Source of the DNA: Acididesulfobacillus acetoxydans
GTDB taxonomy: Bacteria > Bacillota > Desulfitobacteriia > Desulfitobacteriales > Desulfitobacteriaceae
Assembly (NCBI RefSeq): GCF_902729405.1
Contig: NZ_LR746496.1
Span: 1,612,001-1,676,000, forward strand
DNA: 64,000 nt
Direction of reading: 5' to 3'
Each line of letters begins with the position of its first letter. Position 1 is the stretch's first letter. The notes beneath the pieces were generated by a model. That model did no database searches. It was given only the letters and a program-made list of their open reading frames with translations, and had not been told where the DNA came from. The position numbers were made by a program, and so were the translations under genes. Of the stretch, positions 3,503 to 64,000 are shown in pieces.

Positions 3503-3505
3503 ACA

Positions 3506-36412: not shown

Positions 36413-36422
36413 GGTGGTTCAT

Positions 36423-37040
36423 ATGTTAGGCTTGCCAAAGGCGACCGAGCTTTCAAAACCTCTTTCCAAGAAGGCGATATTTGATAAATTTAAGCCGTCG
36501 CTGACTGACCGCAAGCTGTTTGACGATCAGATAAGCCGCCTTTCGATTGTCGCGGAAATCTCGCCGCAGACAGTGGCGATTAAGGCAAGCGCGGACGTTT
36601 CGGCTGTGTACGTTGTTCTGGTCACGCTTAAGACCGCAGAGTGTGACCAGAAGAACATTACACTCTTGTCGAAGCTGATTGACCAACGTATGCTGTTCGT
36701 GCTTCAATTCGGTGATACGACGCGGCTCGCCGTTTACCGCGCCGAAAAGGTTCTTGTTTCCGAAAGCAAGCCACTTGGCGGATGGAAACTTTCGTTAATT
36801 GGACTTGACCTCGAAGCGATATGGGAGAATGTCATCGCGCAGATTGGCGGCATTGACCTGACCGGCGGTGCAGACCTTGATGCGACCATAGCTGAGAATA
36901 ACCGCCAAGAGAAGTTACACAAGCAAATAGCCGCCCTTGAAAAGAAAGCAATGACCGAACGCCAACCCCGCAGGAAGTGGGAACTTGCCGAGAAGATTAG
37001 ACGATTGAAGATAGAATTAGGAGGAACATCGAATGAATAA
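36423..37040 (+). CDS. DUF4391-family protein
   Basis: 205 aa from ATG at 36423, with GAGGTGG upstream (36411-36417). The central part (VYVVLVTLKTAECDQKNITL, DQRMLFVLQFGDTTRLAVYR) and the C-terminal coiled coil (KLHKQIAALEKKAMTERQPR) match DUF4391 proteins, which recur between helicase and type III Mod genes. Function is unknown; a bridging or targeting subunit is plausible. It overlaps the mod gene by 8 nt. Confidence 0.75.
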   Translation: MLGLPKATELSKPLSKKAIFDKFKPSLTDRKLFDDQISRLSIVAEISPQTVAIKASADVSAVYVVLVTLKTAECDQKNITLLSKLIDQRMLFVLQFGDTTRLAVYRAEKVLVSESKPLGGWKLSLIGLDLEAIWENVIAQIGGIDLTGGADLDATIAENNRQEKLHKQIAALEKKAMTERQPRRKWELAEKIRRLKIELGGTSNE

Positions 37041-38928: not shown

Positions 38929-41900
38929 ATGAAATTTCAATTTAAGATACAGCCTTTCCAAACCGAAGCCGCCGAAAGTGTTGTGCGTGTGTTCGCAGGT
39001 CAGCCGAATGTCGGGAAGTCCAAGTACCGCCGTGACATTGGTAGCGAGAGACGACTAAGCGAATCCGAAAGAGCGGGGCGTAGGGGCTTCATTCTCATCT
39101 CCTACGCCGCCTTATCCGATGAGGAAAAGCGGCTTGTCGAGGAGGATTACGAAACCGCTTACCGCAACGAAAACGTGCAACTCTCAAAAGAGCAGCTGTT
39201 AAAAAATATACATGCAGTTCAGACGGCGAATAATATTAAGTACTCCACTGACATTGCCGCTGGGCTTGGTGCGGTGTCGCTTGACGTGGAGATGGAAACC
39301 GGCACCGGCAAGACTTATGTCTATATTAAGACTATGTTCGAGCTCCATAAGGCATACGGCTGGAGCAAGTTCATCGTAGTCGTGCCGAGCATCGCCATCC
39401 GCGAGGGAGTCAAAAAGTCCTTTGAAATGTTGGAAGACCACTTCATGCAGATTTACGGACTGAAAGCACGCCATTTCATCTACAACTCCTCGAATCTGCA
39501 CCAGCTTGATGAGTTCACACAGAACAGCGGCATCAATGTAATGATTATCAACACCCAGGCTTTCAACACCACAATGAATGAGGACAAGAACACCGAGGGC
39601 CGGAGCGGCAACGAGGCAGCGAGGATAATCTACACCAAGCGCGACGAGTTCGGCAGTCGCCGGCCGATCGACGTTATCAAGGCGAACCGTCCGATCATCA
39701 TTCTCGACGAGCCGCAGAAGATGGGCGGAATGGCGACACAAAACGCTCTCAAAAAGAACTTCGCACCACTGTTCTCTCTAAACTACTCGGCAACACACAA
39801 GACGAGCCACAATCTTGTTTACGTCCTTGACGCGCTGGACGCATTCAAGAAGAAGCTGGTTAAAAAAATAGAGGTCAAGGGCTTTGAACTGAAGAATCTC
39901 GGCGGCACGAACCGCTATATGTATCTTGCCGCCATTGTGGTAGATAAAAGGAAGCCGCCTCGTGCCCGGTTGGAGTTTGAAGTCAGCCGTGCGACGGGTT
40001 CACCGAAACGTGAAACGCATCTACTCGAAGTGGGCGACAGCCTTTATACCGCTTCAAAGGGATTAGAGGAATACAAAGGAATCTCTATTGCCGATATTGA
40101 CCCGATACGGGCGACGGTCACGTTCTCGAATGGCGATAGCCTGGCAGCAGGTGAAGCAAGCGGAAACGTCAACGAGGATGATATTCGCCGTATTCAAATC
40201 CGTGAGACGATTAATTCCCATTTTGACAAAGAGGAGACATTATTTGAGCAAGGCATCAAGTGCCTGTCACTTTTCTTCATTGATGAGGTAGCGAAGTATC
40301 GCCAATACGGTGACGACGGCGAGGAGATACTCGGTCAATACGGACGCATTTTTGAGGAGGAATACACTGCCGCACTGAACGAACGACTGACGCTTTTTCC
40401 AACGGCGTATCAAGCCTATCTGCGTGGTATTGAGACCAATGATACGCATCGTGGCTATTTTTCCATAGACAAGAAAGGCCATGTCATAAACAGCAAGGTT
40501 AAGCGTGGCTCCGAGGAGTCCGATGACATTTCCGCTTATGACCTTATCCTTAAAAACAAGGAGAGGTTGCTGTCTTTTGAAGAGCCAACACGGTTTATCT
40601 TCTCTCACTCCGCTTTGCGCGAAGGATGGGATAACCCTAACGTGTTCCAGATATGCACCTTGAAACACTCTGACAACGCCACGGCAAAGAGGCAGGAAGT
40701 CGGCCGCGGTTTGCGACTGTGCGTGAATAGCCTTGGAGAGCGACAGGACTTAGAGGCTTGCGGCGAAACCCTTGTTCATAACGTGAATATGCTCACCGTC
40801 GTCGCAAGTGAAAGTTATGCGGGGTTTGTTGCCGATTTGCAGAGCGAGATTAAGTCCGACCTATACGAGCGCCCAACAAAGGCAAGTGTGGAGTACTTCT
40901 CCGGCAGGACGGTATACCTGAGCGACGAGCAAACACATACGTTTACAGTTGCAGAAGCAACCGCAGTCTACAACTATCTCGTCCGCAATGCTTATGTTGA
41001 TGATAACGGCGGAGTAACAGATACCTACAGAGCCGCAGCCGAAGCAGGCAGCTTCGCGCCGATGAAGCCTGAACTTGCGCCACTTGCCGAGAGCGTTCAC
41101 AAACTGGTACAGGCTATCTTCGATCCAAGCATCCTCAAAGATATGGCGGGCAATGGCCACGACACGAAGGTTAAGGACAACCCGCTGAACGAGAACTGGA
41201 AGGACTTCAAGGAACTCTGGGAGCGCATTAACAAGAAGTACGCCTACACCGTGGAATTCGACGGTGATGAACTCATCAACAAGTCAATTGCCGTAATTAA
41301 CGCAGAATTGAAAGTCGCCCGCTTGTCGTACACCCTCACCAAAGGGTCGCAGGAAGGTACGGACTTTAATGTGGAGCGCACTGAAACAAAAAAGCTCGAC
41401 CGGGCGCACGGCGGTCTTGCAACCTATGATATTATCGGCAAAATTTCGGATGGCACGAGCCTCACGCGTAGGACAGTTACAGCTATCCTTGACGGCATGG
41501 CAAAAGAAAAACTCTGGTTGTTCCGTGAGAACCCAGAAGAGTTTATTGCCAAGGTAGTCGTTATCATTAACAAGCAAAAAGCCTCGGTGGTCGTTGAGCA
41601 CATTACCTACGCCCCAAGCGCAGAGGAACCTTACACGCAAGATATTTTTAATATGAGCCGCGCCTCAGACGAGTATTATAAGGCATTCAAGGCAAAACAT
41701 GCCATTCAGGACTATGTTTTTACGGACGGTTCTGCAACCAACAGCGTAGAGCGTCGTTTTGCCGAGGACGTGGACGTTGCCGACGAAGTAATCGTCTACG
41801 CCAAGTTGCCGCGGGGACCGCGCGGTTTCTATATCCCGACACCTGTGGGTAATTACTCCCCGGACTGGGCAATTTCGTTCAAAAAAGGTGCAGTGAAGCA

Positions 41901-42075
41901 TATCTTCTTCATCGCTGAAACAAAGGGCACGATGGACAGCCTTGAACTCCGTCCGATTGAACAGGCGAAGATCTCTTGCGCAAAGAAGCTGTTCAACGAG
42001 ATTTCTACAACCGGCGTGAAGTACCACGACGTAGACAGTTACCAGAGCCTGCTCACGGTGATGGAGACGCTTTAG
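38929..42075 (+). CDS. res: type III restriction endonuclease subunit (Res)
   Basis: 1,048 aa. Superfamily 2 helicase with motif I VEMETGTGKTYVYIKTMF (near residue 125), motif II IILDEPQKMGG (near 260) and motif VI-like NATAKRQEVGRGLRLCVN. The C-terminal nuclease domain has the PD-(D/E)xK pattern VGNYSPDWAISF followed by FFIAETKGTMDS. Length is typical for Res. It cleaves DNA after ATP-driven communication between head-to-head sites bound by Mod. It appears intact. Confidence 0.93.
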   Translation: MKFQFKIQPFQTEAAESVVRVFAGQPNVGKSKYRRDIGSERRLSESERAGRRGFILISYAALSDEEKRLVEEDYETAYRNENVQLSKEQLLKNIHAVQTANNIKYSTDIAAGLGAVSLDVEMETGTGKTYVYIKTMFELHKAYGWSKFIVVVPSIAIREGVKKSFEMLEDHFMQIYGLKARHFIYNSSNLHQLDEFTQNSGINVMIINTQAFNTTMNEDKNTEGRSGNEAARIIYTKRDEFGSRRPIDVIKANRPIIILDEPQKMGGMATQNALKKNFAPLFSLNYSATHKTSHNLVYVLDALDAFKKKLVKKIEVKGFELKNLGGTNRYMYLAAIVVDKRKPPRARLEFEVSRATGSPKRETHLLEVGDSLYTASKGLEEYKGISIADIDPIRATVTFSNGDSLAAGEASGNVNEDDIRRIQIRETINSHFDKEETLFEQGIKCLSLFFIDEVAKYRQYGDDGEEILGQYGRIFEEEYTAALNERLTLFPTAYQAYLRGIETNDTHRGYFSIDKKGHVINSKVKRGSEESDDISAYDLILKNKERLLSFEEPTRFIFSHSALREGWDNPNVFQICTLKHSDNATAKRQEVGRGLRLCVNSLGERQDLEACGETLVHNVNMLTVVASESYAGFVADLQSEIKSDLYERPTKASVEYFSGRTVYLSDEQTHTFTVAEATAVYNYLVRNAYVDDNGGVTDTYRAAAEAGSFAPMKPELAPLAESVHKLVQAIFDPSILKDMAGNGHDTKVKDNPLNENWKDFKELWERINKKYAYTVEFDGDELINKSIAVINAELKVARLSYTLTKGSQEGTDFNVERTETKKLDRAHGGLATYDIIGKISDGTSLTRRTVTAILDGMAKEKLWLFRENPEEFIAKVVVIINKQKASVVVEHITYAPSAEEPYTQDIFNMSRASDEYYKAFKAKHAIQDYVFTDGSATNSVERRFAEDVDVADEVIVYAKLPRGPRGFYIPTPVGNYSPDWAISFKKGAVKHIFFIAETKGTMDSLELRPIEQAKISCAKKLFNEISTTGVKYHDVDSYQSLLTVMETL

Positions 42076-42643: not shown

Positions 42644-42791
42644 CCTATTGACAATAACGGTTGATATCTCAAAGGAATTTGGCCTGTCGTCTTCGGGGAA
42701 GAGCATCATTATTGCCTCGACCGAAGGCAATGTGTCAATACCCGAGAAGGAGGAGATAAAGATCGGTCTGAATGTCTACAGGAAGCCTTAG
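42612..42791 (+). CDS. conserved small protein, 59 aa, copy 1
   Basis: ATG at 42612 with AAGGAGG at 42597-42603. It reads MKNCEMKLNGNLLTITVDIS, then contains SSSGKSIIIASTEGNVSIP. Both copies in the window keep the frame with mostly conservative or silent changes (two to four residues differ), which indicates a real gene. It is followed after 1 bp by the 198-aa gene. Function is unknown. Confidence 0.65.
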   Translation: MKNCEMKLNGNLLTITVDISKEFGLSSSGKSIIIASTEGNVSIPEKEEIKIGLNVYRKP

Positions 42792-42792
42792 A

Positions 42793-43389
42793 ATGGACTT
42801 ATACGCTCTTGGCATCCTATGGTCCATCGGGAGCCCAATCGAGGACAGATATCCATATTTCATGCTTCGCCACCATGACCGGTATTTCCTCGACGTGGTT
42901 CATGAAGCCCTTAATGTTTCAACCAGCGTTTTTGCGGGAGAAGCCAGAACCGGCTCACAATATAAACTCAAGATATTTAAATTTGATCTAAGGCAATTGA
43001 TTCAATACGGTTGGCAGTCTCGCATCAGCGATCAGCGAAAGTACCCCGATATTTCGGAACATGCCGATTTTATCCGCGCCTATTTTGAGTTGCATAGCAC
43101 CATTGATACTCTTACTGTCCGAAAACGTGGTAAAGAACGAAGGTCTCCCCGTTTGAGAATCTACGGCAACCGATATTTTCTTGACCAGCTAACAGAGGTG
43201 TTGAATTCACAGGCTGAGATATCTCCTAAGCGTGTCCAAAGGGCGACCAAGTATTCGAAGTTCAGCGGAATTCTGTACTATCAAAGTCGCCGGGAGTTAG
43301 AGAAATTGCTTGATTATCTTTATCCTCCGGATGCCTGGTATTTCCATCGGGGATATTATGAACAGTTTAGAGCTGCACTTCACAGATAA
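42793..43389 (+). CDS. LAGLIDADG-like protein, 198 aa, copy 1
   Basis: From ATG at 42793 (1 bp after the small gene). The opening MDLYALGILWSIGSPIEDRY and the later LRIYGNRYFLDQLTEVLN resemble the two repeated halves of LAGLIDADG-type DNA-binding folds, in which helix plus beta sheet is repeated (PYFMLRHHDRYFLDVV in the first half). The canonical acidic catalytic pair is not clear (WSIGSPIED replaces the usual GDG). It may be a regulator or a degenerate homing endonuclease. The copy at 54344 differs at only about seven residues. Confidence 0.55.
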   Translation: MDLYALGILWSIGSPIEDRYPYFMLRHHDRYFLDVVHEALNVSTSVFAGEARTGSQYKLKIFKFDLRQLIQYGWQSRISDQRKYPDISEHADFIRAYFELHSTIDTLTVRKRGKERRSPRLRIYGNRYFLDQLTEVLNSQAEISPKRVQRATKYSKFSGILYYQSRRELEKLLDYLYPPDAWYFHRGYYEQFRAALHR

Positions 43390-43494
43390 GTGGGAACGGT
43401 CCCAAAGTATGACATGGGTGACTAATCGCCCGCCCATTCCCAGATTGGGGAAGGACGTACCATCTTAACAAAGAGGAACTGGTGAGGCTAAAGT

Positions 43495-43740
43495 TTGGAA
43501 AAATATCTAGCGAATTGGTTGGGCAAACCGTGGTGGACCGGAATCTCTGGTGTAGCAGGACTAATAGCTATGACAACAAGTATTTTGTTCGGGGCTTCCT
43601 GTTTTGCAACTAACACAACTGGATCGCTGAGTTTATTTTCATAGGCGCTTTTCTAGGAATTCTGCCAGCCTTATCACGTGACGCTGAACATTGGGAAGAT
43701 CTTTTGAATACCCCTGAGATAGAGGCCGGAAGAGTATGAC
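43495..43740 (+). pseudogene. small membrane protein, frameshifted
   Basis: TTG at 43495 with GGTGAGG upstream gives MEKYLANWLGKPWWTGISGV and a transmembrane stretch (AGLIAMTTSILFGASCF), then a TAG at 43642. A neighbouring frame continues as FIFIGAFLGILPALSRDAEH and ends at TGA 43738, so one indel near 43630 separates two halves of a two-helix membrane protein. Confidence 0.45.
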
Positions 43741-43788
43741 GAGATTTTTTTTGCAAAGCGTGTCTAAACATCAGAATATGGCATTAGG

Positions 43789-44907
43789 GTGATGAATTCA
43801 ATGGTGGAAAATAGTAATGATTGGAAACTAGGATATGTGCTTGCAAATCTAAAAATTAAAGAACCAGTTGAATCCAACTCGGGTGCTATAGCACTGGTGC
43901 CCTTTAATGACCGACGGCTCACGGGGATTCAGACAGCTTCAAATGGAGCCAAAAAACTTTTAAATGGATTTCATGACATGTATGGGAAACCAACCTGTCC
44001 ATCCGCTATAATCTATTATGAAAGTGCTCCCGAAGGCGTAAAATCCATACCTGCCATGGTAGACTTTCGTAATTGTGTGGCTATGTCTTACATTTTACCT
44101 GGATGGGGTCAGATGGACTTTGCACAGATAAGTAGTCCATCTAATCCTTTGTGGTCGGACTTTTTCGACTTTTATCCTGCGTTAGTTGACTCGCGCGATG
44201 CTATTTCTTCTATAAATCCGGCACAAGAGATTTTTGGTGGGAAAAATGCGCCTTTCGAAGGAATGTCATCTCCATATGTAACGCAACCCCCTGGGGAATT
44301 TATCGTCGATACAAACCTGCTTAGCTTACTTATTTCCAAATGGGAACAGCGCTATGTAAGTCCGGGAACTGATAAGTGGGATGGACGGAAACTTTTTCGT
44401 TCTTTGGAAATGGCTTATCGAGTACTTTCACTCCCAGTAAAGAATGAAGGCAGCATACATGACTTTGGTTCTTCAATAGCTCTTTGGGTAAGTGCCTTTG
44501 AAATCCTTGCTCACCCTGAAGATGGGAAAGTAGACAAAACCGTTGTATTTGAACTCTTGCGTAAGGCACCGTCGTGGTATTATGAAGAGTTACTCGACAA
44601 GCGTTTTGAAGTCCAGACACGTAAAGGGAAATTGTCCGCTACATTAGTGGAGCGACTTTATGATGATTTATATAACGCCAGAAATGCGTTCCTTCATGGC
44701 AATACCATTGACGTGGATGTTTGGCGATATAAAGGCAAGACAATTCAAATTGCTTTAGAAAATCTCGCACCAGTTCTATATCGTACGGCCTTAATGTCCT
44801 ATCTGGGAGGGCCCCTACCTACCTCAGAAACAGATGACGACATAATTCGAGCCTACTGCGATCAAATTTACGAAGATTTTCTAATGCAAGTTTTGGATGT
44901 TCAGTGA
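43789..44907 (+). CDS. HEPN-motif protein (Apea-like), possible defence protein
   Basis: 372 aa. Near the C-terminus a helical region has RLYDDLYNARNAFLHGNTID. This contains an Rx4H motif (Arg298, His303) of HEPN ribonucleases of the Apea-like type, preceded by a helix with SIALWVSAFEILAHPEDG. The N-terminal 170 residues are unrecognised. HEPN proteins are often toxin or abortive-infection RNases. The start has no strong ribosome binding site. The final codons lie inside a repeat that is the end of an IS66-DruA-like element, so the natural C-terminus may be altered. It lies in the island downstream of the R-M genes. Confidence 0.55.
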   Translation: MMNSMVENSNDWKLGYVLANLKIKEPVESNSGAIALVPFNDRRLTGIQTASNGAKKLLNGFHDMYGKPTCPSAIIYYESAPEGVKSIPAMVDFRNCVAMSYILPGWGQMDFAQISSPSNPLWSDFFDFYPALVDSRDAISSINPAQEIFGGKNAPFEGMSSPYVTQPPGEFIVDTNLLSLLISKWEQRYVSPGTDKWDGRKLFRSLEMAYRVLSLPVKNEGSIHDFGSSIALWVSAFEILAHPEDGKVDKTVVFELLRKAPSWYYEELLDKRFEVQTRKGKLSATLVERLYDDLYNARNAFLHGNTIDVDVWRYKGKTIQIALENLAPVLYRTALMSYLGGPLPTSETDDDIIRAYCDQIYEDFLMQVLDVQ

Positions 44908-44985
44908 ACATGTAGAAGTTAACCGGGCCGGACTTAGTCCGACCCAGTGAGAATTTAACGGGTTCCTATGGAGGGGACAGTAGTA
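44895..44985 (+). repeat. end of IS66-DruA-type element, remnant 1
   Basis: Contains ATGTTCAGTGAACAT (44897-44911), the stem GGGCCGGACTTAGTCCGACC and GAGAATTTAACG, matching the left end and the 3' end of druA at 20996-21100. Only about 90 bp remain. Confidence 0.7.
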
Positions 44986-44987
44986 AT

Positions 44988-45314
44988 ATGGGCTTCTCTC
45001 CACCCCACAACAGAAAATCCCTGCTACTCGCAGTAGCCCTGGCCGTTCTCACCCTTCTTGACGGCGCGCTAACGCTCTGGGGGCTTCGTCTTGGCGCAAT
45101 CGAGGAGGCCAATCCCTTGATGCGATGGTTGATCGACCAAAACGCCGTCGCGTTCATGGCGGTCAAGCTGGCACTGCCGGTCCTCCTGGGGGTCCTGCTG
45201 TGGCGGATAGGAAACAGGCCGCACGCATTGGTTTCTCGGCTGCTGGTTATTGCGGTGTTGGCATATGGCGTGGTTCTAGTGACTCATGCCCAGTGGATTC
45301 TGCGCGGGGGATAA
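44988..45314 (+). CDS. DUF5658-like small membrane protein, copy 1
   Basis: 108 aa with GGAGGGGA 12 nt upstream. It has three to four hydrophobic helices: LLLAVALAVLTLLDGALTLW, FMAVKLALPVLLGVLLW and LLVIAVLAYGVVLVTHAQW. The segment LRLGAIEEANPLMRWLI is typical of DUF5658. The protein is probably in the inner membrane. A second copy at 57641 differs at a few positions. It starts module B. Confidence 0.7.
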   Translation: MGFSPPHNRKSLLLAVALAVLTLLDGALTLWGLRLGAIEEANPLMRWLIDQNAVAFMAVKLALPVLLGVLLWRIGNRPHALVSRLLVIAVLAYGVVLVTHAQWILRGG

Positions 45315-45345
45315 TGGAACACCGGGGAAGGAATCTAGGAAACTT

Positions 45346-45582
45346 ATGGACAGCGTCGGTCAATTATTGGCACGACTACGTGGGGACAAGGGCCTCTCCC
45401 AGGCAGAACTGGCTAAACTGGTCGGGACAACCGCGAATCACATCTGCGATCTGGAGTGCGGGAAGCCGGGCAGTATTGCACTTTCCGCGAAGCTGGCAGT
45501 GGTGCTCGACGTGCCTCTGGAAAAAGTGTACAAGAAAGAGAAGGGGAGGCAACCGCAAAATGAAAAAACAAACGCTGATTGA
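45346..45582 (+). CDS. XRE-family HTH protein, copy 1
   Basis: 78 aa. HTH_3 domain covering almost the whole protein: LLARLRGDKGLSQAELAKLV, GTTANHICDLECGKPGSIAL, and LAVVLDVPLEKVY. ATG at 45346 follows GGGGAAGGAATCTAGG. The C-terminal 15 residues are polar. Its stop overlaps the next small gene. It probably regulates this module. Confidence 0.8.
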   Translation: MDSVGQLLARLRGDKGLSQAELAKLVGTTANHICDLECGKPGSIALSAKLAVVLDVPLEKVYKKEKGRQPQNEKTNAD

Positions 45583-45727
45583 GATCAACGACTGCGTGGA
45601 AACCGACCTGAGCCATGATCAGTGGCTCGACGACTTCATCGACTGGCTGGAGTCACGTGGTGAGTATTTTGGCGGAGGGACGAAGGACGTGACGAGCGAA
45701 GAGGTAACATACGAAGAGAATGAGTAA
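45560..45727 (+). CDS. small acidic protein, 55 aa, copy 1
   Basis: ATG at 45560, GGGGAGG upstream. It reads MKKQTLIEINDCVETDLSHD then WLDDFIDWLESRGEYFGGGT and ends in an acidic tail. It overlaps the HTH gene by 23 nt. The second copy has lost its first 16 codons through a deletion. Function is unknown. Confidence 0.55.
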   Translation: MKKQTLIEINDCVETDLSHDQWLDDFIDWLESRGEYFGGGTKDVTSEEVTYEENE

Positions 45728-54343: not shown

Positions 54344-54940
54344 ATGGACTTATACGCTCTTCGCATCCTATGGTCCATTGGGAGCCCAATCGAGGACAGA
54401 TATCCTTATTTCATGATCCGCCACCATGACCGGTATTTCCTCGACGTGGTTCATGAAGCCCTTAATGTTTCAACCAGCGTTTTTGCGGGAGAAGCCAGAA
54501 CCGGCTCACAATATAAACTCAAGATATTTAAATTTGATCTAAGGCAATTGATTCAATACGGTTGGCAGTCTCGCATCAGCGATCAGCGAAAGTACCCCGA
54601 TATTTCGGAACATGCCGATTTTATCCGCGCCTATTTTGAGTTGCATAGCACCATTGATACTCTTACTGTCCGAAAACGTGGTAAAGAACGAAGGTCCCCC
54701 CGTTTGAGAATCTACGGCAACCGATATTTTCTTGACCAGCTAACAGAGGTGTTGAATTCACAGGCTGAGATATCTCCTAAGCGTGTCCAAAGGGCGACCA
54801 AGTATTCGCAGTTCAGCGGAATTCTGTACTATCAAAGTCGCCGGGAGTTAGAGAAATTGCTTGATTATCTTTATCCTCCTAATGTCTGGTATTTCCATCG
54901 GGAATATTATGAACAATTTAGAGCTGCACTTCTCAGATAA
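54344..54940 (+). CDS. LAGLIDADG-like protein, 198 aa, copy 2
   Basis: Near-identical to the protein at 42793, with changes such as LRILWSIGS, FMIRHHDRY and PPNVWYFHREYY. It starts immediately after the 59-aa gene stop, so the two are probably one translational unit in both modules. Confidence 0.55.
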   Translation: MDLYALRILWSIGSPIEDRYPYFMIRHHDRYFLDVVHEALNVSTSVFAGEARTGSQYKLKIFKFDLRQLIQYGWQSRISDQRKYPDISEHADFIRAYFELHSTIDTLTVRKRGKERRSPRLRIYGNRYFLDQLTEVLNSQAEISPKRVQRATKYSQFSGILYYQSRRELEKLLDYLYPPNVWYFHREYYEQFRAALLR

Positions 54941-55186
54941 GTTGGAACGGTCCCAAAGTATGACATGGGTGACTAATCGCCTGCCCGTCCCCAGATTGGG
55001 AAAGGGTGTACCTTGACTTAGCAAAGGGGAACTGAGAGGAGTTGCGGAAAATTGCTCCTGGACCAGTGGCAGGGGATTTACTTTTGTGAGTTTGATGGTC
55101 CACGTTTGCGTATCTGTTGCGTGAGAATGCTGATGTAAACCTGTGAGGTGATTGAAGGTATCAACGAATGAGAGAGGGGAGTTCGC
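54941..55186 (+). other. module A tail with leader repeat copy C
   Basis: Begins with GGAACGGTCCCAAAGTATGA, shared with 43391-43430, and holds the leader repeat CAGATTGGGAAAGGGTGTAC then CTTAGCAAAG at 54993-55030. No gene in the rest. Confidence 0.45.
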
Positions 55187-55327
55187 GTGCGGAAACAAGT
55201 TAGGCTGGACGGATTTGGATTTAAGTTGTTTGGGAGTGATGGGGTTAAGCGTAAAGAGGTGAAAGGGATATTTACTGCCCAGACTTTAGTTGAAATGTTT
55301 ATAAAGGAATTTATTAAAATGATTTAA
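55187..55327 (+). CDS. small ORF, 46 aa
   Basis: GTG at 55187 after AGAGAGGGGAGTTCGC. It reads MRKQVRLDGFGFKLFGSDGV, then KEVKGIFTAQTLVEMFIKEF. Basic and short. No family recognised. It occupies the position after leader repeat C that the membrane protein genes occupy after copies A and B. Confidence 0.35.
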   Translation: MRKQVRLDGFGFKLFGSDGVKRKEVKGIFTAQTLVEMFIKEFIKMI

Positions 55328-55362
55328 CGTCATATTGAAGATCAAAAAATCATATTGCGCAT

Positions 55363-55626
55363 ATGAAAAAAGGTTCTATAGACCTTAGCGGACTAAAAGG
55401 TTTAATTAAACAGTTGGAAGAAGAAACAAAAATCCAATCAATTTGGCGTCCTGGGGTTTGGTCATATGTTAAAAGGAAAGATAGTTATCGGGTTTACTAC
55501 AGCAACAATTATAATTATGATTTTACAGCTAAGTTACCAAATAACAGTGAAGTGGAAGATTATTTAAAATACTTATCCTTGATTCCCGGCAAAAATTATA
55601 CCTACAGGACTTTTGATTTCATTTAG
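55363..55626 (+). CDS. hypothetical protein, 87 aa
   Basis: ATG at 55363; it reads MKKGSIDLSGLKGLIKQLEE, then SYRVYYSNNYNYDFTAKLPN, with many aromatic residues. AT-rich. No strong ribosome binding site. No family recognised. It ends about 80 bp before the IS1634-type element. Confidence 0.4.
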   Translation: MKKGSIDLSGLKGLIKQLEEETKIQSIWRPGVWSYVKRKDSYRVYYSNNYNYDFTAKLPNNSEVEDYLKYLSLIPGKNYTYRTFDFI

Positions 55627-55707
55627 CCAATTTAGTTGGAAAATAGCCTGCTTTCAAGCTTGTTTGTTGCAGAATCTCTTGAAGTTTATTGTTTTTCCCT
55701 TGTATTC

Positions 55708-55751
55708 CCCCTCGCTTGTAGGTATAATAATTTATACCTACAAGCGAGGGG
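55708..55751 (+). repeat. perfect 19-bp inverted repeat at left end of IS1634-type element
   Basis: Arms CCCCTCGCTTGTAGGTATA and TATACCTACAAGCGAGGGG with a 6-nt loop ATAATT. The right arm contains the element tip (compare GTGTAGGTATAATTAT at 57350). The transposase GTG lies 10 bp further on. Confidence 0.8.
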
Positions 55752-57365
55752 AGGGGTTACCGTGACTTCCATCATTAGGCAAAAGGTTGGGGATAAGATT
55801 TATCTTTACGAGTCAGTTTCTTTTCGCAATGCCGACGGCAAGCCGAGAAACAAACGTGTCCCTATCGGCAAAATTAATCCCATAACCGGAAATCCGGTGT
55901 ATAAGCCTGAATACCTGGCCCGTATGGCTGAACAAGGAACTCCCATTGAAATACCAGCAACCAACATGACCTTTTCTATTGAGGAGATCCAGCGTTCATC
56001 CATCAAGGATTATGGAGCCTTTTATCTCTTTCAGAGCATTGCGCAAAGCATTGGATTGCTCAGGGCTCTGGAGAGAGCCTTACCGAATTACTGGCAAGAG
56101 GTATTCAATCTGGCCTGTTACCTTATTTCCTCCGGAGATCCGTTTCTTTATTGTGAGGATTGGATTAACAGTACCGAATGCCTTCCGGTCGGCAGCATGT
56201 CGTCGCAACGCATCAGTGAATTGTTGGCGGCCATAAGCCCAGACTCAAGAGAGGCTTTTTATCAGGAATGGTGCCAGTGCCGGAGTGAACAGGAATACCT
56301 TGCCCTCGACATCACCTCTGTCTCCTCCTATTCTAACTTGATTGAAGACGTTGAATGGGGATACAACCGGGACAAGGAAGCGCTTCCCCAAATCAACCTT
56401 TGCATGCTGATGGGGGAAAAATCAGGGCTTCCTATCTATCAGACCGCGTACAGCGGCAGCCTCAAGGATGTCTCAACGTTGAAAACTACCTTGTCCAAAA
56501 TGAATGCCTTATCGAAAGGTAAACCCACCCTGATTGTGATGGACAAGGGTTTCTTCAGTACCAAAAATGTAAACGCCATGTTGAATGATGCGGCCAAACT
56601 ACGCTTCGTCATCTCGGTTCCCTTCACCTCCGGCTTTGCGAAAAAGCAGGTGGAAAGCGAACGCAAAGATATTGACAGCCTTCAGAACACAATGGTTTTA
56701 GGGGAAGATTCTGTTCGCGGGGTCACCAAACTTAGAGCGTGGAACAAAGACCATAAGATTTATACGCATGTTTACTATAACGCCATGAAGGCGATGAAGC
56801 TTCGCGAGAACCTTTATGCGCATGTCGCACTTCTGAAAGAACGGGCAGAGGCCCATCCTGCAGCTCACCTGCAGGAAGAAGAATATAGCAAATACCTTCT
56901 CATCCGCAACTCGGAGAAATCTCCCTCAGGCTATACCGTCAGCATTAAAGAGGAGGCCATCAGACAGGAGCTGGAGACAGCCGGTTGGATGATCCTCATA
57001 ACGAATGATGTGGCCAACGCTAAAGCAGCTCTCCGAATATACCGGGAAAAAGATGTTGTGGAAAAGGGCTTCCTTCGCTTAAAAAATAGTCTAGACCTTG
57101 GAAGATTAAGGGTACATAAGGACGGTATTATGCAGAACAAGATCTTCATTGGTTTTATCGCACTCATACTTGCCGCACATATCCACAAGGTCATGCTGGA
57201 AAAGGATCTTTACAAAAAGATGACCATGAAGAAATTGCTCATCACCTTATCTAAATTACGCATCCAAGTAGTAAATGGAACACGAATCCTGTTCCCGCTT
57301 ACTAAAAATCAAAGCACTATCTACAAAGCGTTTAATGTTAAAGAACCCGTGTAGGTATAATTATC
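55727..57365 (+). mobile_element. IS1634-family insertion sequence
   Basis: One transposase gene between tips ATAATTTATACCTACAAG and (inverse of right end) ATAATTATACCTACACGG. Boundaries are approximate. The left flank repeats the inner sequence as an inverted copy. Confidence 0.7.
55762..57354 (+). CDS. IS1634-family (IS4-like) transposase
   Basis: 530 aa from GTG at 55762 (GAGGGG upstream); an upstream extension to 55636 crosses the IS tip and is rejected. The N-terminal part (IIRQKVGDKIYLYESVSFRN, KRVPIGKINPITGNPVYKPE) is typical. DDE residues are Asp in YLALDITSVSSYSNLIE, Asp in LIVMDKGFFSTKNVN, and Glu in the YREKDVVEKGFLRLKN signature. It ends within the right tip. Intact. Confidence 0.9.
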   Translation: MTSIIRQKVGDKIYLYESVSFRNADGKPRNKRVPIGKINPITGNPVYKPEYLARMAEQGTPIEIPATNMTFSIEEIQRSSIKDYGAFYLFQSIAQSIGLLRALERALPNYWQEVFNLACYLISSGDPFLYCEDWINSTECLPVGSMSSQRISELLAAISPDSREAFYQEWCQCRSEQEYLALDITSVSSYSNLIEDVEWGYNRDKEALPQINLCMLMGEKSGLPIYQTAYSGSLKDVSTLKTTLSKMNALSKGKPTLIVMDKGFFSTKNVNAMLNDAAKLRFVISVPFTSGFAKKQVESERKDIDSLQNTMVLGEDSVRGVTKLRAWNKDHKIYTHVYYNAMKAMKLRENLYAHVALLKERAEAHPAAHLQEEEYSKYLLIRNSEKSPSGYTVSIKEEAIRQELETAGWMILITNDVANAKAALRIYREKDVVEKGFLRLKNSLDLGRLRVHKDGIMQNKIFIGFIALILAAHIHKVMLEKDLYKKMTMKKLLITLSKLRIQVVNGTRILFPLTKNQSTIYKAFNVKEPV

Positions 57366-57529
57366 GACGGGATTTTAGGTACTTATCTAAACGCTAAATG
57401 TTGCCTACATGGCTTGGGCTTGTTTGGGGGGGGATGGCCGAAGTCGGGGATAAATATGCAACCAAGCACAGTGTGGAATAAGGCTGTGTTGTGGGTTAAG
57501 TAATGAGAATGAATCTCGGCTTCGACGTA
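57366..57529 (+). other. short intergenic stretch
   Basis: Includes a G8 run near 57427. No gene is recognised. Confidence 0.35.
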
Positions 57530-57640
57530 AATGTTCAATGAACTATTCAATAAACATTTAAAAGTTAACAAAAACGGGCCGGACTTAATCCGACCCGGCG
57601 AGAATGTGACGAAAGTTCCTATGGAGGGGATAGTAGTAAT
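57530..57640 (+). repeat. end of IS66-DruA-type element, remnant 2
   Basis: AAATGTTCAATGAACTATTC, AACATTTAAAAGTTAAC, the stem GGGCCGGACTTAATCCGACC and GAGAATGTGACGAAAGTTCC match 20994-21085 closely, then diverge into the DUF5658 gene start. It begins module B copy 2. Confidence 0.75.
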
Positions 57641-57967
57641 ATGGGCTTTTCTCCACCCCACAACAGAACATCCCTGCTACTCCCAGCAACCCTGGCCGTT
57701 CTCACCCTTCTTGACGGCGCGCTAACGCTCTGGGGGCTTCGTCTTGGCGCAATCGAGGAAGCCAACCCCTTGATGCGATGGTTGATCGACCAAAACGTCG
57801 TGGCGTTCATGGCGGTCAAGCTGGCACTGCCGGTCCTCCTGGGGGTCCTGCTGTGGCGGATAGGAAACAGGCCGCACGCATTGGTTTCTCGGCTGGTGGT
57901 TATAGGGGTGTTGGCATATGGCGTGGTCCTCGTGACTCATGCCCAGTGGATTCTGCGCGGGGGATAA
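57641..57967 (+). CDS. DUF5658-like small membrane protein, copy 2
   Basis: 108 aa with TGGAGGGGA upstream. Near-identical to 44988-45314, differing at about eight residues (for example NRTSLLLPATLAVLTLLDGA). Same hydrophobic helices and LRLGAIEEANPLMRWLID segment. Confidence 0.7.
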   Translation: MGFSPPHNRTSLLLPATLAVLTLLDGALTLWGLRLGAIEEANPLMRWLIDQNVVAFMAVKLALPVLLGVLLWRIGNRPHALVSRLVVIGVLAYGVVLVTHAQWILRGG

Positions 57968-57998
57968 TGGAACACCGGGGAAGGAATCTAGGAAACTT

Positions 57999-58211
57999 AT
58001 GGACAGCGTCGGTCAATTATTGGCACGACTACGTGGGGACAAGGGCCTCTCCCAGGCAGAACTGGCTAAACTGGTCGGGACAACCGCGAATCACATCTGC
58101 GATCTGGAGTGCGGGAAGCCGGGCAGTATTGCACTTCTCGCGAAGCTGGCAGTGGTGCTCGACGTGCCTCTGGAAGAAGTGTGGCTGCGTGGAAACCGAC
58201 CTGAGCCATGA
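57999..58211 (+). CDS. XRE-family HTH protein, copy 2, altered C-terminus
   Basis: 70 aa. Identical HTH domain to the copy at 45346, except ALLAKL for ALSAKL, but a deletion of about 60 bp after LDVPLEEV fuses it to foreign codons (WLRGNRPEP) and removes the start of the next gene. The DNA-binding domain itself is intact. Confidence 0.65.
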   Translation: MDSVGQLLARLRGDKGLSQAELAKLVGTTANHICDLECGKPGSIALLAKLAVVLDVPLEEVWLRGNRPEP

Positions 58212-58320
58212 TCAGTGGCTCGACGACTTCATCGACTGGCTGGAGTCACGTGGCGAATATTTTGGTGGTGGCACGAAGGACGTTACGAGCGAAGAGGTAA
58301 CATACGAAGAGGATGAGTAA
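58186..58320 (+). pseudogene. small acidic protein, copy 2, start deleted
   Basis: The frame retains CVETDLSHDQWLDDFIDWLE and SRGEYFGGGTKDVTSEEVTY but lacks the first codons and ribosome binding site found in the copy at 45560. Confidence 0.5.
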
Positions 58321-58871: not shown

Positions 58872-60275
58872 TTGAAGAAAATAAGAAACGCTAAGGAATT
58901 ACTCGCTCGTGGTGACGTCGAATCGAGGCGGATGGTTTTATCTATTTTGGAACAAGTGCTACAGAGAATGGATTCCTACAATCGGATTAAAGATATCGCA
59001 AAGCTAGACGGGGACGTCCTGCAGATCGGAACAAAAAAGATCAATTTGCAGGAGAAGAAAAGAATATTTCTTCTCGGCGCGGGCAAAGCATGCAACTCGA
59101 TGGCCCGGGCGGTTGAAGACATTTTGGGCGATAGAATTACCAAAGGAATTATTATTGTAAAAGTTCTGGAGCCAACAGAAAAGTTTAAATATTGCGAGGT
59201 GGTCTGCGGCGGACATCCGCTACCGAACGAGGAGGGCCTCAAAGCGGCCGAAGCTATTTTGGAGCTGGTTGAACAAGCTGACGCCAATGATCTGTTTATC
59301 AGCGTCATCAGTGGCGGGAGTTCGGCGTTGATGAGTTGCCCCGTACAAAGCATCAGTCTTGAAGAAGAGCTGAAAGTAACCGATCTGTTGTTGAAATGCG
59401 GGGCAAATATTAATGAAATTAATGCGGTGCGGCGGCATATTTCCCAGGTCAACGGGGGGCGGCTGGCAGAAAAAATTCTCGCCAAGCGGGCTGAGCTGAT
59501 CAACTTTATCATCAGTGATAGCGTAGGGGCAAAGCCGACCGCCGATCGGAGCCGTCCCTGTTTTTTTCAGGGCACTCCTGTAGCGCGTGACCAGACAACA
59601 ATCAAAGATGCTTTAAATACAATCAAGAAGTACAGGCTCGCGGCCGAAGTACCAAAGGCAATCATGGACTATCTTGAGGCAGAAGATGAGTCGCATGAGA
59701 CACCTAAAGAATTAGAGGGGAGGGTTTCGCATTTCGTCCTTGATAAAGTCCCTGATTCCTGTGAAGTTGCAGCTGCGGTCGCGCGGGAAATGGGAATTCC
59801 GTCAATGACGCTGACAACTTATCTTGAAGGAGAGAGTAGGGAAGCCGGAATATTTTTAGCGAGCGTTGCCCGAGAAATACAGACCAACCATCGTCCGCTG
59901 GCAACTCCGTGCGTGTTATTGCTGGCGGGAGAGACTACGACCAAAATAGAAAAAAATGAAAAGTGTGGCAAGGGTGGTCCCTCGCAGGAATTGGCGCTGG
60001 GGTTTGCACTCAAGGCGGAGCTGGTTGAGGGAGTATGTCTTGGAGCGCTGGATACTGATGGCACCGACGGACCGACGGATGCGGCTGGTGCGATTGCCGA
60101 TGCTAAAACGGCCGCGCGGGCTAGGTCGATAGGCTTGGATATGTACAAAGCGACGCTAGAGCATTCGTCTCATTCGTTCTTTGATGGGCTTGGAGACTGC
60201 TTATACACAGGAACAACTGGGACAAATGTCTGTGATTTGAATGTTTTGTATATCCCCAATAAGAGAGAGGCATAA
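58872..60275 (+). CDS. glycerate 2-kinase family protein (GckA/MOFRL type)
   Basis: 467 aa from TTG at 58872 (AAGGGG upstream at 58857-58862). The DUF4147 domain has IFLLGAGKACNSMARAVEDI, VVCGGHPLPNEEGLKAAEAI, LFISVISGGSSALMSCP and INAVRRHISQVNGGRLAEKI. The C-terminal MOFRL region follows: LLLAGETTTKIEKNEKCGKG, GPSQELALGFALK and LGALDTDGTDGPTDAAGA. Known members phosphorylate glycerate (or hydroxypyruvate-derived acids) to 2-phosphoglycerate. The next gene, 16 bp downstream, is an enolase paralogue. Length and motifs are normal, so it is likely an active kinase, possibly for a different 2-hydroxy acid. Confidence 0.88.
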   Translation: MKKIRNAKELLARGDVESRRMVLSILEQVLQRMDSYNRIKDIAKLDGDVLQIGTKKINLQEKKRIFLLGAGKACNSMARAVEDILGDRITKGIIIVKVLEPTEKFKYCEVVCGGHPLPNEEGLKAAEAILELVEQADANDLFISVISGGSSALMSCPVQSISLEEELKVTDLLLKCGANINEINAVRRHISQVNGGRLAEKILAKRAELINFIISDSVGAKPTADRSRPCFFQGTPVARDQTTIKDALNTIKKYRLAAEVPKAIMDYLEAEDESHETPKELEGRVSHFVLDKVPDSCEVAAAVAREMGIPSMTLTTYLEGESREAGIFLASVAREIQTNHRPLATPCVLLLAGETTTKIEKNEKCGKGGPSQELALGFALKAELVEGVCLGALDTDGTDGPTDAAGAIADAKTAARARSIGLDMYKATLEHSSHSFFDGLGDCLYTGTTGTNVCDLNVLYIPNKREA

Positions 60276-60291
60276 GGGAGTTGGATTCACG

Positions 60292-61575
60292 ATGAGTCGT
60301 ATCAAAAATGTTGTACCTCGGCAGATATTTGACACCAAAGGGCGGCCGATGCTGGAGGTTGATATCGTTACCGATAACGGGGCCATGGGACGGGGTTCGT
60401 CCCCTACCGGCACATCGGTGGGGAAACATGAGGCCGTTGTACTTCGTGATATGGATATCTCTTCCTTCGGCGGGCTTGGTGTTTCCCGCGCTATCAAAAA
60501 CATCCAGGAAATCGTAGCGCCGGCAATCATCGGTATGGACGTAAACGAACAAGAACTTATCGATAATACGATAATCGCCCTTGACGGGACAAAAAACAAA
60601 GCGAGACTAGGCGGCAATACGATTTATAGTACGTCGATAGCTGTAGCCAGGGCAGCCGCTTGTAGTAATAACCTCCCGCTTTATCGATACCTGGCGAAGG
60701 GTAAGGAAGTAACTATTCCTGTTCCTACGTTTAATATGATCAACGGAGGGTCTTACGGAGCAAGCAGACTGGATTTTCAGGAATTTATGATTGTTCCTTG
60801 GAAAGCACAAACCTTCCGGGAGGCGATGCAGATAGCCGTGGAAGTGTTTTATATACTGCCTGATATTATTCGGAAAAAAGGGGGCCTTGTTAATACTGGC
60901 AATTATTCCGGTTATGGCGCTCCCGTACAAGATCCTGCAGCCGTGCTAGATATTTTGAGCACAGCGGCGGAAGCAGCAGGGTATCTTGACAAGATAGTTT
61001 TTGCGCTTGATTGCGCGGCCAGTGAAATATACGACGAAACTAGAAATAAATACAGATTTATGGAGCAGTTTGTAACTCGGGAAGACATCATAAATGTTAT
61101 AAAAGAGTTATCAAAAAAATACCCTCTGTTATTTGTGGAAGATATTCTTCAAGAAGATGATTTTGCCGGTTTTGCACTTGCCACAGAACAGTTATATCCG
61201 ACATTGGTCGTGGGGGACGACCTGTTTACTACCAACATCGAAAGAGTAAAGACCGGAATAAAAATGCATGCGGGTAACGGCATTATTTTAAAACCTAATC
61301 AGGTCGGCTCGTTGACGGAAGCACTGGTAACTAAAGTCTATGCCAGCGAACGAGGTTTTACCGTTATTCCTTCCGGCCGGGCCGGCGGTGCAGTCGATGA
61401 TCCGATCCGGGAAATAGCTGTCGGCATAAAAGCGCCATTGGTAAAAGTAGGTGCGCCGCGGAGCGGTGAAAGGATTAACTCAATGAACCAGCTGCTGCGG
61501 ATTGAGGAAACACTGACCGGCCCCAGGACGTTGGCCGATATCGGGGCTATTATTGCGGAATTTCGGCTTGACTAA
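60292..61575 (+). CDS. enolase-superfamily paralogue with altered active site
   Basis: 427 aa from ATG at 60292 with AAGGGAG upstream. The fold signature of true enolases is clear: QIFDTKGRPMLEVDIVTDNG, FQEFMIVPW, VFALDCAASEIYD, VVGDDLFTTN, ILKPNQVGSLTEALVT and SMNQLLRIEETL. Metal ligands (Asp240, Glu283, Asp309/310) and both lysines (Lys334, Lys385) are kept. However, the catalytic GDEGGFAP motif is replaced by GNYSGYGAP, the GGSH histidine is Tyr155, and the SHRSGET loop reads PSGRAGGAV. A canonical 2-phosphoglycerate dehydratase role is therefore doubtful. The enzyme may act on a related phosphorylated acid made by the upstream kinase. It starts 16 bp after the kinase stop and ends 14 bp before hyuA. 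Confidence 0.88.
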   Translation: MSRIKNVVPRQIFDTKGRPMLEVDIVTDNGAMGRGSSPTGTSVGKHEAVVLRDMDISSFGGLGVSRAIKNIQEIVAPAIIGMDVNEQELIDNTIIALDGTKNKARLGGNTIYSTSIAVARAAACSNNLPLYRYLAKGKEVTIPVPTFNMINGGSYGASRLDFQEFMIVPWKAQTFREAMQIAVEVFYILPDIIRKKGGLVNTGNYSGYGAPVQDPAAVLDILSTAAEAAGYLDKIVFALDCAASEIYDETRNKYRFMEQFVTREDIINVIKELSKKYPLLFVEDILQEDDFAGFALATEQLYPTLVVGDDLFTTNIERVKTGIKMHAGNGIILKPNQVGSLTEALVTKVYASERGFTVIPSGRAGGAVDDPIREIAVGIKAPLVKVGAPRSGERINSMNQLLRIEETLTGPRTLADIGAIIAEFRLD

Positions 61576-61589
61576 GGGGGGTATATGTA

Positions 61590-63635
61590 ATGTATAGGAT
61601 TGGAATAGACGTGGGCGGTACCTTTACCGATGTAACACTTTTGAATGCTGATACCGGAAAGTATTATACCTACAAACTGTCATCGACGCCGCACGACCAG
61701 TCAGTGGCGATTATGAACGGGACGAAGGAGATTCTGGAGCTTTATAATATTTCGGCGAGAGATGTTAACTATTTTGGCCATGGCACGACGGTGGCCACTA
61801 ATATAATTATCGAGCGAAAAGGGGCCAAAACGGCGCTACTTACTACGCGTGGCTTTAGGGATATCCTGGAGATCGGGCGTCAGACACGGCCCAGTCTTTA
61901 TAATTTATTTGAGGAGAAACCAGAAACCTTGGTGAAGCGGTCGCTCAGGCGCGAGTTAAACGAGCGCGTCAGATCCGACGGCAGTGTCGCAAAAGCCATT
62001 GAACCGAAAGAAATTATTGCGGCTTTAGAGAAAATAAAGCAGGAAGGTGTCGAATCGCTGGCAGTTTGTTTTTTGTTTTCATTTCTCAACAGTGAAAATG
62101 AAAAAGCAGTTGAAGACTGCATCAAACAAGTCTGGCCGGAAGTTTACTATTCACTATCGTCAGCTATTCTTCCCGAGTTTAGGGAGTTTGAGCGGCTGAG
62201 CACGACGGTAATAAACTCCTATCTTGGTCCGAAGATGAAAATATATATCGACAACATGCAAGAACGGGTTAAAGAAGTGGGTGTCACGGTTGAACCGTAT
62301 ATCACCCAGTCCAACGGCGGGGTAATGTCGATCAGCTCCACGGTGGAGACGCCGGTCCAGACCGCGTTGTCCGGTCCGAGCGCAGGTGTTGTCGGAGCGA
62401 TTTATGTGGCCGAGTCCGCGGGATTTAAAAACATTATCACTTATGACATGGGCGGCACCAGCACGGACGTTTCGCTGGTGAACAACGGGACGGCCGAATA
62501 TACGACCAAACGCAAGGTTTGCGGTTTGCCGTCGGGTGTGCCGATGATCGATGTTCATGCCGTCGGGGCTGGCGGGGGAAGCATTGCCCGGGTTGACAGC
62601 GCGGGAGCCCTCAAGGTTGGTCCGGAAAGCGCCGGGTCGGTACCTGGCCCGGCTTGCTACGGCTTGGGCGGGGATAATCCCGTAGTTACCGACGCCAATC
62701 TGGTGCTCGGGCGCATAAACCCCAAGCATTTTCTGGGTGGGCGGATGCAAATCAAGGCGAAATACGCCGAAAAAGCAATCCGGGAAAAAGTCGCCGGAAA
62801 GCTTGGGATGTCGGTAGAGGAAGCGGCTCAGGGCATTATCCGCGTCGTCAACTCGAATATGTCCCGGGCAATCCGCGTCATCACCGTCGAACGCGGCTAC
62901 AATCCGTCTGATTTTACGTTGGTAGCCTATGGCGGCGCCGGTCCTTTGCATGCGGTTCACCTGGCCCAGGATATGGGCATCAAAACAGTGCTCATTCCGT
63001 CGGCCCCGGGAGTTCTTTGCGCATTCGGCCTGTTAACGGCCGATATCAAAAAGAGCTATGTCAAGACTTGGCTTTCAAAATACGATGAAGCTGGTCCGGA
63101 ACTTCTCAACAGCATTTTCAAACCGCTTATCAAACAGGGTAATGCTTGGCTTGCGTCCGAGAACGTGCCGGAAGCCAACCGCAAGTTTAATAATATCGTT
63201 GAAATGCGCTACATCGGTCAGAATTACGAACTTCAAGTCAGTGTTCGGTCCGGCGCAATCAGCCAGAGTGATTTCGAGGAGCTTAAAACCAAATTCTTTA
63301 AAGAGCATGAGAAGAACTACGGATATTTCAATCCTACCGCTCCGGTGCAATTTGTCAATTTCCGGACCGAGGCGATCGGCATTGTCGCCAAGCCGAACCT
63401 TGCTACAATCGAAAAGATGACGGATAACATTAAAAAGGCCCTGATCGAAACCAGGGAGGTTTATTTTGCCGAGACGGGGACTATTGACTGTCCGGTATAT
63501 GACCGCTATAAAATCGGCCAGATCGATCGCGTGCAAGGGCCCTGCATTATTGAGCAGATGGATTCCACCACGGTCATTCCCCCCAATACCCATTTTAAAG
63601 TCGATTGTTACGGCAACATCATCGTTACGGTTTGA
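61590..63635 (+). CDS. hyuA: hydantoinase/oxoprolinase family protein, subunit A, second locus
   Basis: 681 aa, ATG with AAGGGGGG upstream. The N-terminal MYRIGIDVGGTFTDVTLLN and FKNIITYDMGGTSTDVSLVN are the two phosphate-binding motifs. AVGAGGGSIARVDSAGAL and AYGGAGPLHAVHLAQDMGIK follow. It clearly belongs to the same family as the protein at 1460 but is only moderately similar. It is followed by hyuB after 25 bp. Cotranscribed with the kinase and enolase-like genes, it probably acts in the same pathway, as an ATP-dependent amidase, lactamase or carboxylase subunit. Confidence 0.93.
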   Translation: MYRIGIDVGGTFTDVTLLNADTGKYYTYKLSSTPHDQSVAIMNGTKEILELYNISARDVNYFGHGTTVATNIIIERKGAKTALLTTRGFRDILEIGRQTRPSLYNLFEEKPETLVKRSLRRELNERVRSDGSVAKAIEPKEIIAALEKIKQEGVESLAVCFLFSFLNSENEKAVEDCIKQVWPEVYYSLSSAILPEFREFERLSTTVINSYLGPKMKIYIDNMQERVKEVGVTVEPYITQSNGGVMSISSTVETPVQTALSGPSAGVVGAIYVAESAGFKNIITYDMGGTSTDVSLVNNGTAEYTTKRKVCGLPSGVPMIDVHAVGAGGGSIARVDSAGALKVGPESAGSVPGPACYGLGGDNPVVTDANLVLGRINPKHFLGGRMQIKAKYAEKAIREKVAGKLGMSVEEAAQGIIRVVNSNMSRAIRVITVERGYNPSDFTLVAYGGAGPLHAVHLAQDMGIKTVLIPSAPGVLCAFGLLTADIKKSYVKTWLSKYDEAGPELLNSIFKPLIKQGNAWLASENVPEANRKFNNIVEMRYIGQNYELQVSVRSGAISQSDFEELKTKFFKEHEKNYGYFNPTAPVQFVNFRTEAIGIVAKPNLATIEKMTDNIKKALIETREVYFAETGTIDCPVYDRYKIGQIDRVQGPCIIEQMDSTTVIPPNTHFKVDCYGNIIVTV

Positions 63636-63660
63636 TAAGTATCGTTAAGGAGTGAACACC

Positions 63661-64000
63661 GTGAGTATAAAATTTGATGGCGTGTTACTCGAGATTATCG
63701 AAAATACTTTCATGTCGATTGCCGAGGAAATGGGGGCAGTCCTGGTAAAATCGGCTTACTCGACCAACATCAAAGAGCGTAAAGATTGCTCGTGCGCCAT
63801 TTTTGACGCCGAAGGTAATACCATCGCTCAGGCTGAACATATCCCTATGCATCTGGGTTCGCTGCTCGGCATGGTCCGGGATATCCGCAAAAATTACGCC
63901 CCAGAGGACATTCATGAGGGAGATATGTTCATCGCTAACGATCCCTATAACGGCGGGGGAACTCATCTGCCCGACATCGCGATTGCCTCGCCGGTCTTCT
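63661..64000 (+). CDS. hyuB: hydantoinase/oxoprolinase family protein, subunit B, second locus, partial
   Basis: Starts at GTG 63661 with AAGGAG 9 nt upstream and runs past the window end; 113 residues are seen. MSIKFDGVLLEIIENTFMSI, KERKDCSCAIFDAEGNTIAQ and IANDPYNGGGTHLPDIAIAS are the diagnostic N-terminal Hydantoinase_B segments. It pairs with HyuA encoded immediately upstream. Confidence 0.92.
   Translation, partial: MSIKFDGVLLEIIENTFMSIAEEMGAVLVKSAYSTNIKERKDCSCAIFDAEGNTIAQAEHIPMHLGSLLGMVRDIRKNYAPEDIHEGDMFIANDPYNGGGTHLPDIAIASPVF

Follow-up and report, generated by a model that had tools for sequence, protein, structure and literature searches.

Enolase is usually regarded as functionally uniform: a lysine base and the metal ions form and hold the enolate of a 2-phospho acid, and Glu211 together with Glu168 handles the departing hydroxyl. 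In a stretch of 64,000 nucleotides of the Acididesulfobacillus acetoxydans genome, whose full length is called the window here, a gene at 60292..61575 on the plus strand encodes a protein of 427 amino acids, EnoL, which is enolase-like by domain and profile matches, alignments and an AlphaFold model, and which lacks Glu211, His159 and His373. The question raised by this locus is what such a protein may do once the general acid is gone from the enolase scaffold. Positions in EnoL are given in its own numbering, with the yeast enolase numbering in brackets; residues named as those of enolase follow the yeast protein.

The EnoL gene, its fold and its active site

The gene is genuine and no artefact, since it belongs to a tightly spaced run of a kinase, EnoL, HyuA and HyuB with gaps of 14-16 bp, and since its rhizobial homologues, described below, are under purifying selection with pairwise dN/dS of 0.05-0.15. 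It starts with an ATG, and AAGGGAG lies about 11 nt upstream. Against the NCBIfam eno model the protein scores 421.9 bits, above the curated cut-off of 300, and for this reason automatic annotation calls it phosphopyruvate hydratase. The Pfam domains Enolase_N and Enolase_C are both matched, over the whole length of the protein, and the nearest solved structures are all enolases by sequence as well as by structure comparison. The AlphaFold model, made with a 27-sequence alignment, has a mean pLDDT of 89.4 and a pTM of 0.90, and its top structural match, tied with other enolases, is the E204A variant of M. tuberculosis enolase (Z 57.2, rmsd 1.5 over 421 residues). Confidence is lowest where the loops are altered and at the C-terminal end, with a mean pLDDT of 62-76 in the blocks 151-160, 191-210 and 361-370; as judged from the model, the fold is settled and the pocket is not.

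EnoL was aligned with crystallised enolases and about 80 canonical enolases from many phyla. The magnesium ligands D240, E283 and D310 (D246, E295 and D320) and the catalytic lysines K334 (K345) and K385 (K396) are kept, as are S42 (S39), E164 (E168) and the phosphate-binding arginine R363 (R374). In the same alignments Tyr155 (codon 60754..60756) stands at the site of His159, Tyr205 (60904..60906) at that of the general acid Glu211, with GNYSG in place of GDEGG, and Gly362 (61375..61377) at that of His373, the codon of the conserved Arg363 (Arg374) being the next one; these plus-strand codon positions were computed from the ORF start. Further replacements are A364 for S375 and G366 for E377. 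Since GDEGG, the histidine of NGGxH and SHRSG are present in every canonical enolase among the matches listed, the changes in EnoL are not chance variation.

The initial annotation had described an enolase paralogue without the Glu211 motif and the substrate histidines, with Tyr155 for the histidine of GGSH and GNYSG for GDEGG, and with the metal ligands and both lysines kept, all of which agrees with the alignments. Its pairing of PSGRAGGAV with SHRSGET is off by one residue: the true partner is SGRAGGA, so Arg374 is retained while His373, Ser375 and Glu377 are lost. The statement that the residues binding or protonating 2-phosphoglycerate are gone thus holds for those around the leaving hydroxyl, but not for Arg374, Ser39, Lys396 and Glu168. 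It had also raised the case that catalytic residues are supplied from other positions, and the alignment offers no substitute for Glu211. With the abstraction machinery intact, the alpha proton could still be taken, as had been proposed, and a change of reaction, which had been thought probable, is likewise our best reading of a protein that has lost the residues surrounding the departing hydroxyl.

Distribution, partner kinase and gene neighbourhoods

Rather than the one odd paralogue as which it was first treated, EnoL is a member of a subfamily that is shared between phyla and linked to a kinase, and that membership is the more telling point. Searching plasmids with tblastn gave nine Rhizobiaceae records with 44-46% identity to EnoL over residues 3-421, well above the canonical enolases ranked below; these homologues share the motifs TG(T/S)SVG, NGGxY, PSGRSGG and GAPRSGER and an SSYGYAAP loop without GDEGG. 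Profile searches added a tandem EnoL pair in a genome of the same phylum as A. acetoxydans (G586) and, within one rhizobial genus, copies in 6 of the 148 genomes. No copy was found in evenly drawn genomes of one rhizobial family (0 of 395), of Pseudomonadota (0 of 398) or of Chloroflexota (0 of 390), in any other genome of the order and class of A. acetoxydans, or in viral contigs, and a single-protein scan of genome contigs gave canonical enolases alone among the matches listed, at about 42% identity. So sparse and patchy a distribution is what mobile catabolic genes would lead one to expect. The two G586 copies (L102:13053-15671) are 55% identical and differ in pocket residues, possibly forming a hetero-oligomer or serving two substrates. 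The EnoL of Rhizobium jaguaris (L089:14001-15256) has a frame disruption after about residue 291 in the deposited record, and the kinase beside it reads through.

In a tree of 11 EnoL sequences, 31 canonical enolases and three sequences of a further kinase-linked group (group B, treated in the last section), the EnoL sequences form one clade with support of 100/100 and a long stem, apart from all enolases sampled, and this phylogeny, a check proposed with the initial annotation, agrees with a separate standing of the group. Within the clade, the window protein is separate from the Rhizobiaceae and G586 proteins. Across the 11 sequences aligned, the magnesium ligands, the lysine pair, Ser39, Glu168 and Arg374 never vary. 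Glu211 is lost in all of them: the window protein has Tyr there, the Rhizobiaceae proteins have Ser, and of the two G586 copies one has Tyr and the other Gly. Position 373 is Gly or Gln throughout the group, and the histidine at position 159 is retained in one of the two G586 copies.

The partner of EnoL is a DUF4147/MOFRL kinase, glycerate 2-kinase-like by domain matches and identity comparisons, at 58872..60275 on the plus strand of the window. A DUF4147 kinase lies directly upstream of EnoL on the same strand in 14 of 14 loci examined (the window, L086-L089, L102-L107 and L120-L122), with a gap of 1-17 bp where both start codons are clear. The window kinase is 49-51% identical to the EnoL-linked kinases of Rhizobiaceae plasmids and of G586, and at most 40% identical to others; when plasmids were searched with it, the same nine records came first at 50-52% and the next identity was 39%, the kinases of Haladaptatus and Halorubrum being the most similar ones after those linked to EnoL. 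By these identities the EnoL-linked kinases are a distinct subfamily of their own. The window kinase has the DUF4147 and MOFRL domains and the lysine of the GKA motif (GAGKAC), and it stays under the curated glycerate 2-kinase cut-offs, with 211.7 bits versus 550 (GlyK_Thmprot) and 138.7 versus 670. DUF4147 kinases specific for D-glycerate exist.

Behind EnoL in the window follow, on the plus strand, HyuA (hydantoinase/oxoprolinase A by domain matches, 61590..63635), whose membership of the pathway is unsure, and the start of HyuB (63652..64000, by domain matches and neighbourhood), which continues past the window; outside the window the series goes on with a GntR regulator of the MocR type and then an MFS transporter akin to those for D-galactonate. 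A second HyuAB pair lies at 1460-5281, and its HyuA is 38% identical to that of the pair at 61590-64000. Each Rhizobiaceae locus continues after EnoL with a protein of the ornithine-cyclodeaminase fold ('tyramine oxidase subunit B', NF004848). The other neighbours differ from locus to locus: a Glu/Leu/Phe/Val dehydrogenase, a cupin resembling DMSP lyase, racemases of the trans-3-hydroxyproline-dehydratase-like kind, HyuAB, and ABC transporters for amino acids or sugars. The G586 locus comprises a nickel-pincer (LarA-type) isomerase of group 22, a TctCBA tripartite tricarboxylate transporter (TTT), the kinase, the two EnoL genes and an RpiR regulator. Regulators (MocR, GntR, RpiR, TetR) and uptake systems (MFS, TTT, ABC) accompany the kinase and EnoL, as in catabolic operons, and only these two are common to all loci.

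Besides EnoL, the 4.52-Mb genome of A. acetoxydans was found to contain a single enolase, which is canonical, 39% identical to EnoL, and lies beside gpmI and pgk; the G+C content of its gene is 57% versus 47% for the EnoL gene. The EnoL cluster is flanked on both sides by transposases, namely a DDE transposase to its left (55636..57354, plus strand, from the neighbourhood annotation) and further ones to the right of the MFS gene, beyond the window. This flanking and the G+C gap suggest that the cluster was acquired horizontally. To its left, two similar stretches at 42772-45727 and 54344-58320 contain related small ORFs, with a MDLYALxILWSIGSPIEDRYPYFM protein and a MVDRPKRR ORF in both, and apparently represent a duplicated mobile segment. 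The window also carries a group II intron at 28899-30716, with a reverse transcriptase/maturase ORF at 29168-30625, and a likely defence island at 33176-42075, where a type III methyltransferase and restriction subunit (37033-42075) are preceded upstream by an HKD+SNF2 helicase protein and a DUF4391 protein.

A proposed two-step module and its alternatives

With a probability of about one half, we read the kinase and EnoL as a two-step catabolic module for a 2-hydroxy acid other than D-glycerate, which would yield phosphoenolpyruvate (PEP) or a substituted PEP. In the first step the kinase would phosphorylate the 2-hydroxyl of an acid whose C3 side is unlike that of D-glycerate. In the second, EnoL would hold the 2-phospho acid via two Mg2+ (D240, E283, D310 and S42), Arg363 and Lys385; Lys334 would take the alpha proton, and the carbanion would then lose its beta substituent with no help from Glu211. 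That substituent would be either one that leaves readily and needs no strong general acid, or a hydroxyl carried by a bulkier C3, for which Glu164 would be the sole acid. The product would then pass to central metabolism. What the data establish is which residues remain and which have gone, that the group is monophyletic, that every locus has the linked kinase, that the copies are under selection, and that a canonical enolase exists separately; the two steps themselves are inferred. Against the module count the loss of Ser375 in the window EnoL, the low confidence of the model in the altered loops, the variation of transporters and accessory enzymes between loci, the want of an evident replacement catalyst, since residue 211 varies within the group, and D-glycerate itself, which may be the substrate of the kinase here and is compatible with all tests run.

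Alanine substitution in the M. tuberculosis enzyme at the equivalents of E168, E211 (E204A), K345 and D246 was reported to give non-functional mutants, and S42A, at the equivalent of Ser39, has reduced but not abolished activity (PMC10619443). Normal enolase activity of EnoL is unlikely, because Glu211 is lost group-wide, His373 is replaced by Gly or Gln, and the E204A mutant is non-functional. A 2-phospho-carboxylate is probably still bound, because Arg374, Ser39, Lys396 and Glu168 remain, and the altered part of the pocket, as read from the alignments, would be the beta (C3) side, plus His159 and Ser375. As the residues for the first half of the reaction are kept and those for the second half are lost except Glu168, the most economical reading would be that the enolate chemistry is unchanged and the group at C3 is different. 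The nickel-pincer isomerase of G586 fits a 2-hydroxy acid substrate, for characterised members of the LarA type mostly racemise or epimerise such acids. On account of the TTT transporter and this isomerase, 3-sulfolactate was considered, which would be phosphorylated and then lose sulfite; it serves as an example only, and an untargeted look noticed no sulfite-handling gene near the loci. Literature searches found, in the papers covered, no description of a kinase-linked enolase paralogue, nor one of sulfolactate in connection with enolase.

Other uses of the same residues have to be weighed. The enolate of EnoL might serve other chemistry on a phosphorylated hydroxy acid, such as C2 epimerisation, or condensation or transfer as in carboxyphosphonoenolpyruvate synthase, a non-enolase enolase homologue of phosphinothricin biosynthesis. 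The two lysines kept could act as a two-base epimerase, the beta-side acid is gone, and an enolase homologue with a different reaction has a precedent; we nevertheless hold this rather improbable, as no phosphonate genes were seen around any EnoL locus, a nickel-pincer isomerase already stands beside the G586 pair, and the strictly kept Glu168 fits a role at C3. A narrower form of the module, in which HyuAB is obligatory and opens a lactam or cyclic ureide before phosphorylation, seems to us unlikely. HyuAB comes right after EnoL in the window, and several rhizobial loci have it at a distance of up to about 10 kb, often with a xylose-isomerase-like protein, but it is not near EnoL in R. tumorigenes and G586 and is very common on rhizobial plasmids. 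The window HyuA next to EnoL is 39% identical to rhizobial HyuA, no closer than to its unrelated paralogue in the window, so that co-inheritance of HyuAB as part of the module, a matter of co-location alone, cannot be claimed.

Two readings would leave EnoL nearer to ordinary enolase or deprive it of catalysis. If it were still a 2-phosphoglycerate hydratase, slow or with residues supplied from elsewhere, it would lead with the kinase from glycerate through 2-phosphoglycerate to PEP, in keeping with the glycerate 2-kinase-like character of the kinase and the mostly kept phosphate and metal sites. This is quite unlikely given that nothing in the alignment replaces a motif which every canonical enolase among the matches listed possesses, that E204A is non-functional (PMC10619443), and that a crippled copy, redundant in a genome with a normal enolase, would hardly agree with the strong purifying selection. 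Also rejected was the idea of a spare enolase that withstands phosphonate inhibitors such as SF-2312 (PMC12288639), for it would need to remain active, and no link to a kinase would be expected. The missing key acids could also mean a catalytically dead protein with a binding, regulatory or moonlighting role, for example by assisting the kinase or, in G586, by pairing with the other tandem EnoL, the two copies there being divergent (55% identical) and possibly able to form a hetero-oligomer. Such a role is the least credible to us, as the three metal ligands, Lys345 and Lys396, needless in a dead protein, are invariant in the group.

Starting from the two-step module, a bolder proposal may be offered, though only tentatively: EnoL could stand for a new isofunctional family next to enolase, of which it would be the first member to be recognised. 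It would be a lyase coupled to a kinase, making PEP or substituted PEP by expelling a group other than hydroxide (e.g. sulfite, an amine or a heterocycle) from a 2-phospho-2-hydroxy acid. If this is true, a whole class of 3-substituted lactates could enter glycolysis. The analysis points to an uncharacterised hydroxy-acid-degrading enzyme under the label 'enolase', and EnoL would probably define a new route for unusual hydroxy acids to central metabolism. A conserved, horizontally spread and kinase-linked branch without the general acid also offers a direct test of how the enolase scaffold is repurposed.

Relation to known systems

With enolase proper (phosphopyruvate hydratase, EC 4.2.1.11; TIGR01060, PF00113/PF03952) EnoL shares the full-length fold (Z 57), the magnesium ligands, Lys345, Lys396, Ser39, Glu168 and Arg374; it differs by the lack of Glu211, His159, His373, Ser375 and Glu377, by its separate clade, and by its link to a kinase instead of a place beside glycolytic genes. 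The hypothetical enolase-related protein PRK08350 (NF006223) is matched by residues 1-152 of EnoL at 91 bits, far under its cut-off of 624 bits, the match being confined to the N-terminal part.

Closer in context is group B, enolase paralogues annotated eno which adjoin a DUF4147 kinase in Haladaptatus, Halorubrum and Paraburkholderia (L108:8703-11365, L109:8696-11347 and L111:6623-9353, on haloarchaeal and Paraburkholderia plasmids). Like EnoL they have a kinase neighbour and replacements of H159 and H373 (here Leu and Glu), but they keep Glu211, have PCGRSRG or PQGRSTG as loop 1, show the order enolase-kinase and form their own clade with support of 98/96. As these changes differ from those of EnoL, kinase-coupled enolase paralogues have been modified in at least two ways.

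Carboxyphosphonoenolpyruvate synthase of bialaphos/phosphinothricin biosynthesis offers a precedent for an enolase homologue whose reaction, on a substrate like 2-phosphoglycerate, is another one; no phosphonate genes were seen near any EnoL locus. MR/MLE and other dehydratases and epimerases of the enolase superfamily carry out beta-elimination or epimerisation after forming a metal-stabilised enolate, a logic which EnoL would share, whereas EnoL has the enolase-type N domain and the Lys/Lys pair and its best solved matches are all enolases. EnoL is best classed as a variant with a new function inside the enolase family, and as neither a new fold nor a new system.
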